Assembly (NCBI GenBank): GCA_001920415.1
Contig: MNJR01000141.1
Span: forward strand, 1-64,000
Reading direction: 5' to 3'
Source: Acidobacteria bacterium 13_1_20CM_3_53_8
GTDB taxonomy: Bacteria; Acidobacteriota; Blastocatellia; Pyrinomonadales; Pyrinomonadaceae
DNA length: 64,000 bases
In this document: positions 46,044 through 55,799 of the stretch, piece by piece
Layout: each line of letters begins with the position of its first letter
Position numbering within the stretch: position 1 is the first letter of the stretch
Notes under the pieces: model-generated
Seen by the model: only the letters and a program-made list of their open reading frames with translations
Database searches by the model: none
Told to the model about the DNA's origin: nothing
Translations under genes and position numbers: made by a program

Positions 46044-46685
46044 ATGGAACTGACCGTAGGTATCACCGGAGCATCCGGCTCAATCTACGCCCACCGCACA
46101 CTAATACATTTAGCTGCGAGCGGCGTGGTCGAGCGCATCAATCTGATTATGTCGGAGTCTGCGCTGCTGGTGGCGCGCGTTGAGTTGGGCGCGGACTTGC
46201 GCGATGCGGATGCGCGGAAGGTCAACGAATGGCTAGGTCTTTCAGAAGATTCAAAGCTGATCCATTTTCATCGTCTTAACAACATGGCTGCGACGCCTTC
46301 TTCGGGGTCTCACGCGCAGGTGGGCATGATTATAGTGCCGTGCTCTATGGGCACGCTCGGCGCTATAGCTTCGGGCGCTGGCACGAACCTGATTCACCGC
46401 GCGGCTGATGTGACTCTGAAAGAAGGCAGAAAACTTGTCATAGTTCCGCGAGAAACTCCCTACAATGCCATTCATCTGGAAAACATGCTTAAGCTTGCGC
46501 ACGCAGGCGCGCGAATTCTTCCGGCAAGTCCGGGCTTCTATCACCGCCCGCAATCAATCGAAGCGCTCGTTGACCATCTTGTTTTCCGCATACTGGATCA
46601 GTTCGGCATACCGCATTCGAAAGCGACTGAATGGAAAGGGACTAGAGAGCAGACAGGCGAGCGTGTGACGGTCGAGGGCGACTGA
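46044..46685 (+). CDS. ubiX: UbiX-type flavin prenyltransferase
   Basis: 213 residues. GITGASGSIYAHRTL binds flavin; the central VPCSMGTLGAIASGAGTNLI, the phosphate-binding RAADVTLKEGRKLVIVPRET and the final LPASPGFYHRPQSI are typical. The enzyme prenylates FMN for UbiD-type decarboxylases. Here it probably serves menaquinone synthesis, since ubiA, mqnE and mqnD relatives follow on the same strand. Confidence 0.92.
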   Translation: MELTVGITGASGSIYAHRTLIHLAASGVVERINLIMSESALLVARVELGADLRDADARKVNEWLGLSEDSKLIHFHRLNNMAATPSSGSHAQVGMIIVPCSMGTLGAIASGAGTNLIHRAADVTLKEGRKLVIVPRETPYNAIHLENMLKLAHAGARILPASPGFYHRPQSIEALVDHLVFRILDQFGIPHSKATEWKGTREQTGERVTVEGD

Positions 46686-46833
46686 TATTAGGTTTTGGCA
46701 GAGTGCAAGAGGTTGCGCCTCGCCACTAGCAGATTGCAAAGCCTTATCACCAAAAATCATAAGCTTTTCACGCAGTTTTAAATGGCGCGGCCTTTGCTTT
46801 ATTGAAAGTCGAGGAGGTTGAGGCCGCGTGAAA

Positions 46834-46922
46834 AGCAGTTTTCAGTTTTTAGTTTTCAGTTTTCAGAAAGAACCTGAAGACTAATTTCTGAAAACTGAAA
46901 ACTAAAAACTGAAAACTGCTCT
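46834..46922. repeat. Heptamer hairpin, GTTTTCA family, copy 2
   Basis: AGCAGTTTTCAGTTTTTAGT and so on, inverse at 46888-46920. It ends about 20 nt before the ubiA-like ATG. It fills the gap 46686-46941, which has no gene. Confidence 0.85.
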
Positions 46923-46941
46923 TAAGCGCCTCTTAAAGATT

Positions 46942-47811
46942 ATGTTGACGGTTGCCAGAAACATTCGCACGACGCTCGAAATGATTAAGTTCGAGCATAC
47001 GCTCTTTGCGTTGCCTTTCGCTCTCTTGGGCGCGGTGTTGGCTGCGCGCGGGCTGCCACAACTGCAACAGATTTTCTGGATTACGCTTGCAATGTTCGGC
47101 GCGCGCTCCACAGCTATGGCATTCAATCGCATAGCTGACCGCGAGATTGATGCGCGCAACCCGCGCACGAAGATGCGCGCCATTCCTGCGGGCGCTCTTT
47201 CTGTCGGTTTCGTCTGGGCGTTTACTTTAATCTCTGCGGCGCTCTTCTTCTTCGCCTCAATGATGCTCAACCGCCTGACGCTCATACTCTCGCCCGTAGC
47301 GCTCGCAAGCGTATTGCTCTACTCCTACACGAAACGCTGGACGCTTCTCTCTCATCTAGTCCTGGGCTGGTGTCTGTCAATCGCACCGGCAGGCGCATGG
47401 ATAGCCATACGCGGCGCAATTGACAGCCCCGTGCCGCTTCTGCTTTCTCTGGTAGTCATGCTCTGGACTGCCGGGTTCGACGTGCTCTACGCCTGTCAGG
47501 ATTACGAGTTCGACCGCGAGGAAGGTCTGCATTCAATTCCGCGAACCTACGGCATCGAACGCGCCCTATGGATTTCAAGACTCTTCCACGCGCAAGCCTT
47601 CTCCACACTGGTTGCGCTATACTTTGTTTCGCACCTTGGATTGATTGCTCTGGTTGGAGTCCTTGCGACAGGCGCGTTGTTAATCTACCAGCACACGCTC
47701 GTGCGCGCAGATGATTTGAAGAGATTGAATGCGGCGTTCTTCACCACGAACGCTTTCGTCAGCGTCATACTCTTCGCCACTTTCGGCGCGGGCGTGCTCT
47801 TCAAATTTTGA
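46942..47811 (+). CDS. mqnP: UbiA-family prenyltransferase (probable MqnP)
   Basis: 289 residues with about eight helices. First Asp-rich motif [18 protein letters not shown] (about 54-72), second motif [18 protein letters not shown]. The N-terminal [20 protein letters not shown] is typical of the 4-hydroxybenzoate/MqnP group. It attaches a prenyl chain to the aromatic ring in the membrane. Context with mqnE/mqnD suggests the 1,4-dihydroxy-6-naphthoate substrate of the futalosine route; the symbol is by context. Confidence 0.85.
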
Positions 47812-47843
47812 AGCCGCTTTTTTTAGAGGAAAGGTAAAAGCAG

Positions 47844-48458
47844 ATGAGCACAAAGCTCGCAACGATAGAACAGGAAATCAACGGACTTGTGCTTCACGCC
47901 AAGCCTTTCACGAAGAAGTGGAGCGACGATGAGTTCTATGACTTCTGCATGCTCAACAAAGACCTGCGTATCGAACTCACGAGCGAAGGAGACCTCATCA
48001 TTATGTCGCCAACCGGAGGAGAGACTGGAAATCGCAATTTCAAACTGATTGTCAGCTTCGGCATCTGGGCTGAAAAGGACGGAACAGGTAAAGGCTTCGA
48101 TTCCTCGACCGTCTTTTCGCTTCCGAACGGCGCGAAACGCTCGCCCGATCTTGCGTGGGTGCGAAACGAGAGATGGAATCGGTTGACGAAGAAGCAGCGA
48201 GAGAAATTCCCTCCGCTCTGTCCTGATTTTGTCGTGGAGTTGCGGTCGCCATCCGATCCGCTCCGGTATTTGAAGAGCAAGATGCGAGAATACATAGAGA
48301 ACGGCGCACAGCTAGGCTGGTTGATTGATCCGTTTGAGAAGAAAGTTTATGTCTATCGTCCGAAATCTGCTGTTGAAGTGCTCGATAATCCTGAGAAGAT
48401 TTCCGGCAAGCCGCTCCTGCGCGGATTTGTTCTGGACGTGCGGACACTCTGGGAATGA
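47844..48458 (+). CDS. Uma2-family (DUF820) endonuclease-like protein
   Basis: 204 residues. [40 protein letters not shown], the PD strand in [17 protein letters not shown] and the E-x-R strand [20 protein letters not shown] make the PD-(D/E)xK-like core. It has the Q-like tail typical of the group ([20 protein letters not shown]). It sits within the menaquinone cluster and has no obvious link to it. Confidence 0.87.
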
Positions 48459-48543
48459 GAGCAGTTTTCAGTTTTCAGTTTTCAGAAGAAGAGCGAGCAA
48501 GCTTTTTACTGAAAACTGAAAACCAAAAACTGAAAACTGCTCT
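48459..48543. repeat. Heptamer hairpin, GTTTTCA family, copy 3
   Basis: Three tandem GTTTTCA words, 27-nt spacer, and inverse TGAAAAC/CAAAAAC words. The right arm ends 11 nt before the mqnE ATG. The mqnE frame stays open through the repeat, which would give a false upstream start at 48455. Confidence 0.87.
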
Positions 48544-48553
48544 TAATAAGGCT

Positions 48554-49666
<1,113 letters not shown>

Positions 49667-49687
49667 TCAATAATCTTAGCTAAAGAC

Positions 49688-50275
49688 ATGAGGAAATTTC
49701 TTCTAACCATATTCGTTTTGTGTAGTCTTACGGCTGTAACCTTCCCTCAACGGGCTAACAACCATACAGCAAATGATGATGTGCTAATCTCCAAAGGACA
49801 TCCAACCGTTTACATTACGTTTGAGCGTTACGGTAAAGCCATTGATATTTCTCAATCTCGTTTAGCCGAACCCGGTAATGCCACTCTATCGAGACAGCGA
49901 GGTCGAGACGTTTGGCTACGCCTTCACAATAACACCAGATGGATAATTGAGATTAATACTTGGAGCTTTTATCTTATTCGCCAGCCTAACGGCTCCTTTG
50001 GTCTTAATGATGGAATGGAAGCAAATATCATTTACGGAGTTTTAGAAGGAGACGGGAGGCTAGTGCCTTATGGCGGAGATAGCTTCTCTAATTCGTGGCT
50101 TCCGCCGGGACATTCAGTCCTCTTTAGCGTGAGGCGAGATCACTTGTCTAATAATCGCTCTATCTTTGTTGCTTTCAGGTACGAATGGGAGAGCGAGCAT
50201 GGATTTGCCGATGGTTCAGAGCCAACTCATCGCGCTGAATTTGACAGTTACCATCTACCTGAAAATGAGCATTAG
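49688..50275 (+). CDS. Predicted secreted protein of unknown function
   Basis: 195 residues with a signal peptide ([22 protein letters not shown]). The mature part is rich in Asn and aromatic residues ([40 protein letters not shown]), like an Ig-type beta sandwich. I do not recognise the family. It sits between mqnE and mqnD; the base composition is somewhat AT-richer than its neighbours, which may mean later insertion. Confidence 0.65.
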
Positions 50276-50357
50276 AGAGATGCGCCGCGAATACAGGTTC
50301 GATTACAGCAGAGCAAAACCAAATCGCTTCGTAAGTCAAATATCTCCGACTATTTTA

Positions 50358-51212
50358 ATGAATAAGACAACCGCAACTGAAACACGCACAATCACTGTAG
50401 CGCATTCGCCCGATTCGGATGATGCATTTATGTTTTACGGGCTGGCGACGAATAAGCTGGATACGGGCGAGCTTCGTTTCGAGCACGTTCTGAAGGATAT
50501 TCAGACTTTGAACGAAGAGGCGCGGCGAGGAACTTATGATGTGACGGCGATAAGCTTTCATGCTTACGCTTACATAGCAGAAAAATATGCTCTCTTGCCG
50601 CACGGGGCTAGCATTGGCGATAACTACGGGCCGATTGTAGTGGCGCGCGAAGCGCACGCGCCCGCAGATTTGCAGAACTTGAAAGTCGCCGTTCCGGGCG
50701 AGTTGACGAGCGCGTTTCTGGCGCTACGCATCTTCAATCCGTCGTTCGAGTACGAAGTCATCCCGTTCGATCAGATAATCGAAGCCGTGCAGGAAGGACT
50801 GGCGGATGCAGGACTGTTGATTCACGAAGGGCAACTCTTCTACAAAAATCTTGGGCTTCATAAAGTGATTGACCTGGGCGAGTGGTGGCACGAGCGCACT
50901 GGGCTGCCGCTGCCAATGGGAGGCAACGCCATACGGCGCGAGTTGGGCGAGGAGTTGATGCGAAAGGTTTCTGGCTATTTGCACGAGAGCATTCGCTATT
51001 CGCTTGAACATCGTGAAGACGCGCTTCGTTACGCGATGCAGTTTGCGCGCGACATGGACACGCGACTGGCGGATCGCTTCGTGGCGATGTGGGTCAACGA
51101 TTTGACGCTGGATTATACGGAGCGCGGGCGCGAGGCTGTGCGACGACTTCTAGAAGAGGGTTACGAGCGCGGCATCATTCCGAATCGTGTCGAGGTTGAT
51201 TTCGTAGAGTAG
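50358..51212 (+). CDS. mqnD: MqnA/MqnD-family menaquinone protein, probably MqnD
   Basis: 284 residues from ATG 50358; the open frame upstream overlaps the previous gene and is not conserved in character. It has the periplasmic-binding-protein fold of this family: [19 protein letters not shown] at the N-terminus, [36 protein letters not shown], and [20 protein letters not shown]. The [11 protein letters not shown] segment corresponds to the SPCPND-F-F pattern of 1,4-dihydroxy-6-naphthoate synthase. MqnA (chorismate dehydratase) is the close alternative. With mqnE upstream it supports the futalosine route. Confidence 0.8.
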
Positions 51213-51330
51213 CTTATAGCTGATTGCTTGCGACCAAGTACGAGTCAGTACCGGTTCGGAGGGAGAAAGATAGTACACGCCTTGCAGGCGTGAATTGAAA
51301 ATTAAAAACTGATTCGTCGTTAAGATAAAT

Positions 51331-51380
51331 GGAGGATGCGCGAGATGAGAAATATTCATCTCGCGCATCCTCCGCTTTTA
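51331..51380. terminator. Strong bidirectional terminator, 18-bp perfect stem
   Basis: GGAGGATGCGCGAGATGA, loop GAAATAT, and its exact inverse, followed by GCTTTTAT on + and preceded by ATTTATC on the same strand (AT-rich on both sides). It separates the convergent mqnD gene and the degenerate AAA+ gene. A small CACGCC/GGCGTG hairpin lies at 51274-51290. Confidence 0.8.
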
Positions 51381-51453: not shown

Positions 51454-52062
51454 CTAGCTTGCCACTGCGAAACGACTGGGGTGAGATTCGAGTAATTCCT
51501 CCTCTTTCAATGCTTCTATCACACGCTCGGCGGCCAGCGAGATGCTGCCAAGAGTCTGCGCAAGATTCCACTCAACAATAAAGTGTGGCACGAGCCTTAC
51601 AAGCGGCCTCTGCGTGACCGTGATGATGCGACAAGCTACGGGGCGCGGAAACGGATCGCCCACTGGCGTGTATCGTCCTGTCTCGACTATACGAGTGAGT
51701 ACGCGCTGAGCGGCTGGCGAAAGCTTTTCGATGTTTGTAATGAAAAGCGTGCCTGTGCCAGCCGCAGCCAGAAGTCCTATCCCATGTTTTATGGGGAGCG
51801 CGACGCCGCCCGTAGCTCCGCCCAGAAGGAGCGACGCGCGGTCGCCGCGCTCGTCATCGGCAAGTTGGCGGCCATCAAGCTCCTCCCACAAGCTCGCCCG
51901 TCCACTTAGTCCGTGCAGCAACGTGGCCGCTCTACGTTGCGCTTGCGCTCGCGCGCTATAGAGGTTCACGGGAAGACGGGATGCCGCCAGTCGCCGACAT
52001 GAGGACCTGAATCTCTCAACGTCAACGCGACGCTCAGAAATTGTCTCAAGAAGATGTTTCAT
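51454..52062 (-). CDS. Degenerate sigma-54 AAA+ domain protein
   Basis: 202 residues from ATG 52062, whose A is shared with the stop of the upstream peptide gene (TAATG). The part GTGTLFITNIEKLSPAAQRV to PVACRIITVTQRPL aligns in order with the Walker B and sensor I region of sigma-54 activators (TLFLDEI, IIAATNRDL), but the acidic DE is replaced by TN. Walker A and the GAFTGA loop are absent, and no HTH is seen. It cannot hydrolyse ATP. It may be a dominant-negative partner of a full activator, or a decaying gene. A full-length TPR-sigma-54 activator lies just upstream on the same strand. Confidence 0.7.
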   Translation of the reverse strand: MKHLLETISERRVDVERFRSSCRRLAASRLPVNLYSARAQAQRRAATLLHGLSGRASLWEELDGRQLADDERGDRASLLLGGATGGVALPIKHGIGLLAAAGTGTLFITNIEKLSPAAQRVLTRIVETGRYTPVGDPFPRPVACRIITVTQRPLVRLVPHFIVEWNLAQTLGSISLAAERVIEALKEEELLESHPSRFAVAS

Positions 52063-52280
52063 TATAAGGGGATGATTTCTGCAATGATTGTGATTATGTC
52101 TGTGATGCCGGGAATCTCTGTCGGCCCACATAGCTGCGCGCCCGGAATCTCTGTAGGGCCGTCAGTGGATGCGGGCGGCGTATTGGTAATGCCCGGAATC
52201 TCTGTAGGGCCAGCGAAAGCTGTCTGCGAGCCTATGCCTAGGACGGCAGCAAGCATGACAACTGAAATAAACCTTCTCAT
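52062..52280 (-). CDS. Small secreted peptide with GPTEIPG repeats
   Basis: 72 residues. Signal peptide MRRFISVVMLAAVLGIGSQT then AFA|GP. The mature part of about 49 residues has three copies of GPTEIPG (one directly at the cleavage site, then after STD and after QLC), a single Cys, and a hydrophobic end (ITDIITIIAEIIPL). GAGAGG-type ribosome site about 11 nt upstream. Stop and next start overlap (TAATG), so translation of the degenerate AAA+ gene is coupled to it. The repeat-bearing secreted peptide next to a regulator could be a signal precursor or a surface peptide; I recognise no family. Confidence 0.65.
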   Translation of the reverse strand: MRRFISVVMLAAVLGIGSQTAFAGPTEIPGITNTPPASTDGPTEIPGAQLCGPTEIPGITDIITIIAEIIPL

Positions 52281-52760
52281 CTCTACGATACCTCTCAAGT
52301 TGGGAGTCAAGTTTTCAAGCAGCCTTTCGTCCAAGCCACCTTTATTATTTCGCACGGCTCTTATTAACAAGAGGCGTGCCAGATGCTCTGGACACACTCG
52401 GAATTCACACGAAAGGCCTTGGTTTACAGGCTTTCATGCATATCGGCTGACTCTAGAGCAAGCTGTGCGAGTGACAGGATTTTTGCTTACTAATTACAGA
52501 GTTATGAGGCTCACGATGCAGCTAACTCGTCTCTTATTAGTCGGTTGAATCGTGTGCAGACTATTTTGCGTGAAGTGCAAAATTTTTTGCGTTTTTAATA
52601 CCGGAATATTAGAGAAGGAATGAGGGCGGCAGCGATGAGGGATGAAATAAGCAAGAAGGGGTAAGAGGGTAAATGGGTAAATGGGAAAAAGGAAAAAGGA
52701 AGAAAGCAGTTCCGTATTATCCTTTCCCCTCTTTCCCTCTTCCCCTTTTCCCCCTTCTTT
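52281..52760. other. Gene-poor gap with GGGGAAAA-type hairpin at 52660-52758
   Basis: The gap holds the promoter of the peptide operon and, at its right end, a tandem-word hairpin: GGTAAATGGGTAAATGGG and its inverse CTTTCCCTCTTCCCCTTTTC. No supported ORF; a + frame over 52054-52548 is the antisense of the GPTEIPG gene and lacks coding features. Confidence 0.6.
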
Positions 52761-55700
52761 TCATCCTTCTTCTTCGTCGTTGCCGGGTTGGTGGGCGATG
52801 TGAAAGCGGCGCAGTTTGTAATCGAGCGTCTGGCGGCGCAGCCCTAATTGGTCTGCCGCGCGCGTGACGTTGCCGTTGTGGCGTGCGAGCGCTTCTGTCA
52901 ACAGTTGGCGCTCGACCTCTATCAGAATCTCTTTGATATTTATCTGCTTGGAGAAGTCCAGGTTGAAATGTACTGGCGCTGGCGTCGCAGCCGAGTTGAG
53001 AATGTCTGACGAGAGCGATTCTGCGCCAACGTACTGCCCGTCTTCTGCGAAGACCACTATGCGTTCAATCTCGCTCTTCAATTGGCGAACGTTGCCCGGC
53101 CACTGGTAGCGCGCAAGATAACCCATAGCCTCCGGCGTTATCCCTGCCAACTGACGATTGTTGCGCCGGCATGTGTCTTCCAGAAAGTATGAGACCAGAA
53201 GCGGTATGTCTTCGGTGCGGTCGCGCAAAGGGGGAATTTTTATGACGAATGTGTTCAGACGATAGTAAAGGTCTTCACGGAAGCGACCTTGACGAACGTC
53301 CTGTTCCAGATCGCGGTTCGTTGCAGCGATTACACGAACATCAACTTTTCTTGGGTTCTCGCCCAGAGGCATTATCTCGCCGCCTTGAAGGAAGCGAAGC
53401 AGCTTGGGCTGAATCTCACTCGGCAGGTCGCCTATCTCATCCAGAAAGAGCGTGCCGCCTTCGGCAGCGCGTATGATGCCGCGCTGGTCGTTAATCGCTC
53501 CTGTAAAACTTCCTTTCTTGTGGCCGAATAGCTGGCTCTCGGCCAACTCGCGCGGCGCTGCCGTGCAGTTGAAAGGCAGGAAGATTTTTTCCCTACGATT
53601 GCTCTCTTCGTGAAGCGATTGCGCTATGATCTCTTTGCCCGTGCCCGATTCTCCCAGAAGAAGAATCGTAGCGTCTGAATCCTTTAACCGCTCCATTCTA
53701 GCCAGCACGTCACGCATCACGAAACTCGCGGCTATTACCTTCTGGAAACGATTCTGCGCGTCCGGCAGCGCAAGAGGATTGAACGGGCGCGCGCGTCGCA
53801 TATCCGTGCGCAGATCAATCATCTGAAGCGCGAGTCGAGCGCAGCCAATAAGCGCTTCAAGAATCTCTGCGCGGCGCTCGGACACAGTAGCAGGCGCGCG
53901 CAGATAAAGAACGAAAGCGCCGCCGCTTCGTCTGGGCGCGAGCGTGTGGCAGTGGTCTGCTACGGGAGCACGCGCATGAAATGCTCGCTCCTCTTTACCT
54001 GAACGGCCAGCGGCTCGCTCCTTCGCAAGATGTTGCGCGATTGCTGCGGATGCGTGCTCGCGCCCCGCTTCGTCCAAATCAATCGTTGCCTGCGCGTACA
54101 GTTGGCCTTCATCGTCTGCGGCGAAGATTGCAGCAGCGTCCGCGCCCAGAGCCTGCTTGGCTGCGAACATCAGTTCGCGCAGCACGCGCTCGCGCCCCGA
54201 TGCGGCTTGAAGAACCTGCATGACGAGCGGCGCAACATCGGGCGGCACGAGGCTTATTGATGCTGGTTGAGCTAGCTGCCATGCGGGTGTCTTATCGGAT
54301 GCGCGCTGAGCTTCGCGCTCAGAGCGTTCTGCATCAAGTTGCGCGCCGAGTTTGTGGAACTGCTCAGCCGCTTCTGTGAAGCGCTCGAAAGCCTGCGCGT
54401 GCTCGCCGCGCCTGACCAGACTCTCGCCGTGCTCGAAGACGGTCACGGCTGTCTGGTAGGCCGCGTTCATAGAACGGAAGACCTCTTCGGCCTGCTTGAA
54501 AAGGCGCTCGCCGCGCGACGGATCGCGGCGTCGCGACGTGAACGCTGCTATGTTCTTCTGAACGAGCGCGTCCAGATACGGATAAGGAAGTTGCTCCAAC
54601 TCTTCCTGAGCGACCTTTGCCCAATCCTCCGCAGGCATCCACTTGTCGCTGCGACGATAGCCCTCGGCCATCAAGATGGCCGCCTCGCTAGCAAGCCTCT
54701 CATCTTTAATCTCGCGCGCAAGTTCGCGTGCGTTGCGCGCGTAAGTTAGAGCAAGATGAGTATTGCGCGCCATCAACCAGAGGCGAGAGAGAGAACAGAG
54801 CGCCTGCGTCTCATCCTTTTTGCTATTAAGCTCTTTCGCTCGCGCGAGCGCAAAGCGAAGATGTTCATTGGCCTCTTTCGTTCTGCCCTGATGCGCGCGC
54901 AGATTGCCGAGCGTCTCAGTCCACTCGCCCTCCCACAGCCTGTGCTCAACGCGACGCGCAATTTCGAGCGCCTGCTGAATGTGACTCTCCGCCTCAGACC
55001 ATTCACCCGTGTAGATACTGATGACAGCAAGGTTGTTGTAGACAATGCCCGTCAGATGATCGCTTGGCGCGCTCGCCAGATGATCGAGCGCGCGTCGGAG
55101 TGAGTTAGCCGCTTCGTAGAAATTCCCTTGAAGCAGTTGCATCACGCCCTGATTGGTCTGAAGACGTGCGCGCGTTACTTCGTCCGTTGTGTTCCGAAGC
55201 AGACGCAGAGCGCGGCGATAACACATCCCGGCCTCGTCAACGTCGCCTTCCTGTCGCGCAACCAGCCCAAGGTTCATGTAAGAGATAGCCACCGAGCGAT
55301 CTTTCCTTGCTCGTCGTCCCCACTCGATTGCAAGCTCGTAATGCTCGCGCGCAAGCGCAATCTCATCAAGCGCCCAATAGGCTCTGCCCAGAGAGTGATA
55401 AGCGCGCGCAAGGTTAACCACGTCGCCCGTCGGCTCAAGTATCTCTTTGGCGCGATTAAGTAGAGTTACAGAGCGTGGGAAATCGTCCTGCCAGTAGGCG
55501 TGCGAGCCGAATGCCACGAGCAGTTGGCCGCGCAAGTGAGTTGGAAGATTATCCAGATTACGAACGTCGTAAGGAGCCAGCACATCGTCGGCATCATCGT
55601 AGTGACTCAGCCCCTCGTAAACTTCCGCGAGTTGTACGCGAGCCTGCACGCCGCGCTCGCTCTCGGCCACATCATGCCCGCTTCCAATCAGATCGAGCAG

Positions 55701-55799
55701 CAGTTTTTGCGCGCCCTTCAAATCGCCGCGATCTGTTGACTGTTGAGCGCGGACAAGAAGCTCTGACCGGGCAGAATCGTTAGCGAAAATCTGTGACAT
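52761..55799 (-). CDS. TPR-GAF-sigma-54 activator (large)
   Basis: 1012 residues. Residues 1-520 are about ten TPR-like repeats (for example AYHSLGRAYWALDEIALARE, YNNLAVISIYTGEWSEAESH). A GAF-type domain follows (about 545-690), then AAA+ with GESGTGKE, contact loop GSFTGA (Ser variant), TLFLDEIGDLP and FREDLYYRLN, and a C-terminal Fis-type HTH (HNGNVTRAADQLGLRRQTLD). There is no receiver, so input is likely through protein contact at the TPRs, or a ligand at GAF. The peptide-AAA+ pair downstream on the same strand may be a target or partner. Confidence 0.88.
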   Translation of the reverse strand: MSQIFANDSARSELLVRAQQSTDRGDLKGAQKLLLDLIGSGHDVAESERGVQARVQLAEVYEGLSHYDDADDVLAPYDVRNLDNLPTHLRGQLLVAFGSHAYWQDDFPRSVTLLNRAKEILEPTGDVVNLARAYHSLGRAYWALDEIALAREHYELAIEWGRRARKDRSVAISYMNLGLVARQEGDVDEAGMCYRRALRLLRNTTDEVTRARLQTNQGVMQLLQGNFYEAANSLRRALDHLASAPSDHLTGIVYNNLAVISIYTGEWSEAESHIQQALEIARRVEHRLWEGEWTETLGNLRAHQGRTKEANEHLRFALARAKELNSKKDETQALCSLSRLWLMARNTHLALTYARNARELAREIKDERLASEAAILMAEGYRRSDKWMPAEDWAKVAQEELEQLPYPYLDALVQKNIAAFTSRRRDPSRGERLFKQAEEVFRSMNAAYQTAVTVFEHGESLVRRGEHAQAFERFTEAAEQFHKLGAQLDAERSEREAQRASDKTPAWQLAQPASISLVPPDVAPLVMQVLQAASGRERVLRELMFAAKQALGADAAAIFAADDEGQLYAQATIDLDEAGREHASAAIAQHLAKERAAGRSGKEERAFHARAPVADHCHTLAPRRSGGAFVLYLRAPATVSERRAEILEALIGCARLALQMIDLRTDMRRARPFNPLALPDAQNRFQKVIAASFVMRDVLARMERLKDSDATILLLGESGTGKEIIAQSLHEESNRREKIFLPFNCTAAPRELAESQLFGHKKGSFTGAINDQRGIIRAAEGGTLFLDEIGDLPSEIQPKLLRFLQGGEIMPLGENPRKVDVRVIAATNRDLEQDVRQGRFREDLYYRLNTFVIKIPPLRDRTEDIPLLVSYFLEDTCRRNNRQLAGITPEAMGYLARYQWPGNVRQLKSEIERIVVFAEDGQYVGAESLSSDILNSAATPAPVHFNLDFSKQINIKEILIEVERQLLTEALARHNGNVTRAADQLGLRRQTLDYKLRRFHIAHQPGNDEEEG

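Follow-up and report, generated by a model that had tools for sequence, protein, structure and literature searches.

A secreted repeat peptide, a degenerate AAA protein and a TPR-sigma-54 activator form a candidate peptide-signalling locus in the Pyrinomonadaceae

The window, a 64-kb stretch of the genome of a soil bacterium of the family Pyrinomonadaceae, carries on its minus strand three genes in the order activator, peptide, pseudo-AAA (positions 55799..52761, 52280..52062 and 52062..51454, respectively). The first codes for a 1012-residue sigma-54 activator (52761..55799) that, from domain searches and a structure model, comprises a TPR domain, a weak GAF-like region, an AAA+ domain, an AAA lid and a Fis-type HTH. 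It lies upstream of the peptide gene on the same strand, with a gap of 480 bp in the window, and hence reads towards the peptide/pseudo-AAA pair. The stop codon of the peptide gene and the start codon of the pseudo-AAA gene overlap in the sequence TAATG. A strong hairpin terminator (51330..51374, no strand assigned) is located between these genes and a convergent mqnD-like gene and separates the two, so that the operon consists of the peptide and pseudo-AAA genes only; no exporter or protease gene was found within it. The adjoining region (46044-51212 of the window) resembles a futalosine menaquinone cluster, with UbiX-like, prenyltransferase, mqnC/E-like radical SAM and mqnD-like genes, and relatives retain the synteny of the operon with this cluster. 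The earlier note on this DNA had described the TAATG overlap, a signal sequence and three GPTEIPG repeats in the peptide, and a full TPR-sigma-54 activator next to the pair, all of which are borne out by the ORFs and their translations. It had not picked up the sigma-54 promoter, nor the wider family described below.

The peptide gene (52062..52280) codes for a secreted repeat peptide precursor of 72 amino acids, as judged from the ORF, its orthologues and the peptide HMM A5, which it matches at 4.1e-14, although its own sequence is among the 24 rows that make up A5. The precursor starts with the signal sequence MRRFISVVMLAAVLGIGSQTAFA (residues 1-23, 52212..52280), for which a sequence pattern found family-wide predicts cleavage after AFA. 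Three GPTEIPG units follow, defined by translation and codon analysis, at residues 24-30 (52191..52211), 41-47 (52140..52160) and 52-58 (52107..52127). The precursor ends with the hydrophobic C-terminal segment ITDIITIIAEIIPL (52065..52106), a feature common to the whole peptide family; all these elements are on the minus strand. Weak single matches aside, searches of Pfam, NCBIfam, PHROGs and PADLOC gave no curated family to which the peptide belongs. Among the focal orthologues the unit varies as a set (GPTEIPG, GPQETPG, GPGETPG, GTAESPG and GPQESPG). The same genome carries an orphan peptide with the units GDIASPG, GPQESPG and GDISSPG (L301:6109-6318, contig C9), which has no adjoining TPR regulator and lies 3' of receiver-domain/two-component genes; since it has no clear sigma-54 site, we make no claim of a regulon.

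The second gene of the operon (51454..52062, minus strand) codes for the pseudo-AAA, a protein of 202 amino acids that its ORF, Pfam and a motif comparison identify as a partial sigma-54-activator AAA core. The Pfam Sigma54_activat profile covers residues 77-159 (2.5e-11), and the Walker A motif, the Walker B acids, the GAFTGA loop, the lid and the HTH are all missing. As the earlier note had read it, there is no Walker A and the DE of Walker B is changed to TN: the degenerate motif is TLFITN (51733..51750, minus strand), where the activator has TLFLDE, and GGVALP stands at the position of the activator's GSFTGA. The orthologues have TLFLTN, TLYLAN, TIFIKN or TLFISH as their Walker B version, and motifs for nucleotide binding and sigma-54 contact, as well as the lid and the HTH, are absent from every full-length one. 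Pairwise dN/dS values of 0.25-0.39 at a dS of about 1 revealed purifying selection, and thus point to a functional protein, even though no full-length copy retains the catalytic residues. In a tree the pseudo-AAA has a long branch; it did not arise recently by copying of the activator next to it. A structure model built from six sequences was poor (pLDDT 41).

Orthologues of the pseudo-AAA, with 58-66% identity, were found in five other Pyrinomonadaceae genomes, with the peptide gene directly upstream in four of them; in a family-wide scan the pseudo-AAA was present in 6 of 119 genomes, which belong to four genera. The earlier note had staked the pair on its conservation among close relatives, and there it is kept. 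The order activator-peptide-pseudo-AAA is found in five genomes (the focal one, G006, G012, G030 and G003), the peptide/pseudo-AAA junction being an overlap in G012, abutting in G003 and G030, and separated in G006. In G036 (locus L056, contig C684), there is no peptide gene and the activator lacks the greater part of its TPR domain, and the AAA domain, the HTH, the promoter and the pseudo-AAA are kept. Such a joint loss of peptide and TPR domain is the outcome that a ligand-receptor link would predict, in a single fragmented MAG. Locus L056 is either a natural case of loss or an assembly artefact.

An alignment of the six loci revealed a putative sigma-54 (-24/-12) promoter, TGGCACGCCTCTTGT (52367..52381, minus strand), about 100 bp 5' of the peptide start. 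The pattern TGGCAC-N5-TTGY has a single exact match in the whole window, where 0.24 are expected. The sequence TGGCAC-N5-TTGT is present at all six loci, between -101 and -144 relative to the start of the peptide gene (for G036, where the peptide gene is absent, the distance was counted from the end of the intergenic stretch), so the -12 box is TTGT in every case, versus the commoner TTGC. About 210 bp 5' of the promoter the same alignment showed a palindrome, CGCAAAAAATTTTGCA (52576..52591, minus strand), a putative upstream activator site. Its consensus, TGCAAAATTTTTTGCA, occurs in six of the six loci at about -311 to -350, which places it 203-211 bp 5' of the promoter, the latter distances being subtractions between alignment outputs. 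Promoter and palindrome are kept in the intergenic alignment and little else is, the flanking sequence having drifted.

The motifs of the activator are intact (GESGTGKE as Walker A, GTLFLDE as Walker B, and GSFTGA), and the protein matches PF00158 (3.4e-64), AAA_lid_14 and HTH_8. It has all the features by which a sigma-54 enhancer-binding protein is recognized, namely Walker A, Walker B, a GAFTGA-type loop, lid and HTH, and RpoN is encoded in the genome. By sequence, a -24/-12 target promoter with an upstream site is present at each of the six orthologous loci. Read most simply, these features mean that the palindrome is the site from which the activator drives the peptide operon, and we consider this very likely. 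The activator had previously been treated as a bystander; with this promoter footprint it becomes the likely controller of the operon and a probable receptor.

That the activator is a candidate receptor agrees with its TPR domain, which was modeled with a pLDDT of 92.8 and whose nearest solved structures are the TPR superhelices of LGN/Pins with extended peptide ligands. Sequence searches with this domain returned LGN and KLC and, weakly, Rap105 (8rte, E 0.0088) and another bacterial TPR regulator. Since TPR folds are generic, the likeness of the model to LGN/Pins indicates a capacity to bind peptides, and no more. Distant TPR sigma-54 proteins exist at about 25% identity.

The same genome has a weak peptide paralogue, and from it a second TPR protein family (HMM A1) was reached. 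Of the 60 relatives searched, 26 carry this family, in 1-8 copies, and all of them are Pyrinomonadaceae; none was found outside the Pyrinomonadaceae in a 297-genome sample of the phylum. The named members come from Pyrinomonadaceae, Blastocatellia or Acidobacteria MAGs and from the cultured type strain Pyrinomonas methylaliphatogenes K22, which has a single pair with three GEMGTG units. A divergent secreted peptide, defined as a divergent ORF of 45-115 amino acids within 600 bp with a signal-like start and a hydrophobic C-terminus, lies beside 93 of 108 A1 regulators versus 1 of 180 control genes from these loci (Fisher 3e-58). The difference is very wide, but the ratio is descriptive, since the rule was drawn up once initial examples were known and some genomes behind the 108 had been sampled in two collections. 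The single control match is antisense to a peptide. By eye, peptides were also seen at at least six of the remaining 15 regulators (L131, L119, L144, L089, L147 and L255, the last being the L116 locus). In the reverse search, strong matches to the peptide HMM A5 fell in nearly the same genomes as the regulators; almost all of them adjoin A1 TPR proteins or sit at focal loci, and a few are orphans. The palindrome TGCAA-N5/6-TTGCA (at least 9 of 10 positions) was found in 30 of 71 intergenic regions, versus 4.4% of dinucleotide shuffles, usually 15-30 bp from the regulator start, and is of an operator type shared with the focal locus. The focal TPR domain is outside the HMM family of the 108 regulators, so that analogy, peptide homology and the common operator type are the grounds for applying the pairing rule to it. 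At L305 and L306, at least two tandem or alternating peptide genes surround TPR proteins, suggesting recent channel duplication.

In this family the TPR domain is fused to HTH_8, to AAA plus HTH, to HTH plus receiver, to HisKA-HATPase-receiver (L144) or to GGDEF-EAL (L151). The outputs vary and the peptide stays; hence it is the TPR domain, not DNA binding, that tracks the peptide. Because the kinase and c-di-GMP versions also keep it, a regulator-target relation is insufficient to account for the pairing, and a shared input explains it. At L145, where a TPR domain is joined to an OmpR-type winged helix, no peptide was found. The divergent peptides of L144 and L151 have the repeats GNITVS x5 and GDLGTD x5, respectively, and are preceded, at about 140 bp, by TGGCAC-type sigma-54-like sites; compared with their own shuffles, the promoter-like sites of L151 and L144 showed no excess (p 0.17 and 0.27). 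Overall, sigma-54 promoters 5' of the divergent peptides did not exceed the shuffled expectation, so the sigma-54 link is not general. In L060, L064, L076 and other TPR-AAA-HTH proteins the GAFTGA loop has frequently changed (GSFTDA, GFSERA), and their peptides showed no sigma-54 promoter, suggesting that sigma-54 activation has been lost and the domain kept.

The repeat unit itself is under selection. An exactly repeated 6-mer was present in the mature part of 26 of the 76 peptides, versus 0.03% of shuffles, with up to five copies; identical repeats often number two to five per precursor. These exact repeats, far above the shuffled expectation, together with 58-66% identical pseudo-AAA orthologues, four of the five with the peptide upstream, reject ordinary chance. 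Of 259 codon pairs compared between units of identical sequence, 132 differ, with 55% at four-fold sites; the weight lies in the amount of synonymous change, non-synonymous differences being excluded by construction once exact repeats are chosen. Such synonymous divergence means that amino-acid identity is kept up by selection and is not due to recent duplication. Paralogues inside one genome have different units. A mirror-tree test on the core set gave correlations with TPR distance of 0.30 for the unit, 0.28 for the C-terminus and 0.49 for the signal sequence, and over all pairs the C-terminal segment followed TPR divergence with r 0.66; no part of the peptide was singled out as the ligand. 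On balance, the peptide is probably a ligand of the TPR domain, and cell-to-cell signalling is somewhat less likely than that.

We propose, with a probability of roughly 0.55, that the focal operon serves peptide signalling and belongs to an undescribed Pyrinomonadaceae peptide/TPR family. The activator would bind the palindrome as an enhancer and open the sigma-54 promoter, and the precursor would be exported by Sec and then cut. A repeat unit or the C-terminal segment could re-enter the cell across its two membranes, for instance via an Opp-type permease (four SBP_bac_5 proteins in the genome offer a possible uptake route), and bind the TPR superhelix, which would alter the output of the activator. 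Since the sigma-54 promoter would drive the peptide itself, this would amount to positive feedback. In the weakest step, the pseudo-AAA, devoid of motifs for ATP binding, hydrolysis and sigma-54 contact, would most likely damp the loop by docking onto the AAA ring of the activator; that it is a brake on the activator we regard as a tentative idea, rather less than evenly probable. The earlier note had suggested a peptide signal with an inhibitory regulator. The signal half is now well supported by the conserved TPR pairing, by selection on the repeat unit and by a peptide that stays constant while output domains vary; the inhibitor half is still a guess.

The peptides might instead be secreted effectors, that is membrane-active antimicrobial, adhesive or envelope peptides, with the TPR protein as an ordinary regulator that senses something else. 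A hydrophobic, amphipathic-looking C-terminal segment is found family-wide and could be membrane-active, and the sigma-54 promoter fits a simple regulator-target pair. However, TPR-GGDEF-EAL and TPR-histidine-kinase proteins that have no DNA-binding domain also have peptides, selected identical units that diversify between paralogues are unusual for membrane-active peptides, and no immunity, processing or transporter genes are linked; we regard this explanation as rather unlikely. Less probable still is that the TPR protein gauges the export load by binding precursor that has not yet left the cytoplasm, in which case no signal would pass between cells. The TPR proteins are cytosolic and would meet the precursor there first, positive feedback would report blocked export, and the C-terminal segment does track TPR divergence, but this leaves unexplained both the identical units directly after the cleavage site and the up to eight distinct units per genome. 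That the pseudo-AAA and the peptide are functionless, decaying remnants of a duplicated activator, as an AAA fragment devoid of any catalytic motif might suggest, is very improbable given the purifying selection, the conserved promoter, the tight gene coupling, the orthologues in four genera and a pseudo-AAA that is not a recent activator copy; ordinary coincidence and decay are both very unlikely.

The peptide-signalling operon is, as far as sequence comparison goes, best read as RRNPP-like peptide/TPR signalling in Acidobacteriota, and not as a member of RRNPP. As in the RRNPP/RRNPPA systems of Firmicutes (Rap-Phr, PlcR-PapR, NprR, Rgg-SHP, AimR), a small secreted precursor adjoins a cytosolic TPR regulator, many paralogous pairs with distinct units occur per genome, and the receptors have DNA-binding or other outputs. 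A secreted propeptide gene adjoins the receptor at the focal locus and, at the ratio given above, throughout the family. However, the RRNPP receptor is a protein of 250-500 amino acids with an RRNPP-type TPR and an N-terminal HTH; the focal protein has 1012 amino acids and matches Rap105 with an E of about 0.009, for which reason we do not file the system as RRNPP. Here the TPR domain is N-terminal and of LGN/KLC type, the Fis-type HTH is C-terminal, the outputs are AAA+, receiver, HK or GGDEF-EAL, the hosts are Gram-negative Acidobacteriota and the peptide gene is usually divergent. A large-scale survey of RRNPP covered Firmicutes and viruses only (PMC10075063).

The Phr105/Phr3T propeptides carry several identical or near-identical pheromone units in tandem per precursor (PMC11343458). 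The focal system shares the multi-unit precursor and the weak match of its TPR domain to Rap105, and differs in that the precursors are unrelated in sequence, with as many as five units in the wider family, and in its control by sigma-54 and its host from another phylum. The closest solved folds and sequences, the TPR domains of LGN/Pins and kinesin light chain, also bind extended peptides, but belong to eukaryotic scaffolds and not to transcription regulators. With PF00158, Walker A and B, GSFTGA, the AAA lid, HTH_8 and an upstream site, the activator resembles bEBPs of the NtrC/NorR/PspF class, from which it differs in having TPR as its sensor domain. PspA, which inhibits PspF in trans (PMC3791423), sets a precedent for control of a bEBP ring by another protein; the role of the pseudo-AAA is conjecture, and the putative inhibitor is here, unlike PspA, a degenerate AAA core.

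Peptide/TPR quorum sensing is regarded as a Gram-positive trait. Within the part of the literature covered, no description of such a system in Acidobacteriota was found, and the family of peptide/TPR pairs appears to be unnamed and previously undescribed. The pairs, up to about eight per genome, are here confined to one Acidobacteriota family. It is possible, at slightly less than even odds, that they form a multi-channel, lineage-specific peptide communication in Gram-negative Pyrinomonadaceae, with paralogue-specific units, cytosolic TPR receptors and interchangeable outputs (transcription, sigma-54 activation, phosphorelay, c-di-GMP), in which the focal locus would be a sigma-54-amplified channel with a pseudo-AAA brake. 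The single pair of P. methylaliphatogenes K22 makes direct tests possible. If the proposal is true, the principle would also apply in a major phylum of soil bacteria about whose signalling little is known, and its outputs there would range from transcription to c-di-GMP, which suggests more than one origin of TPR-peptide signalling; the family would then be a natural experiment on receptor modularity, with the pseudo-AAA as a candidate for regulating a sigma-54 activator.
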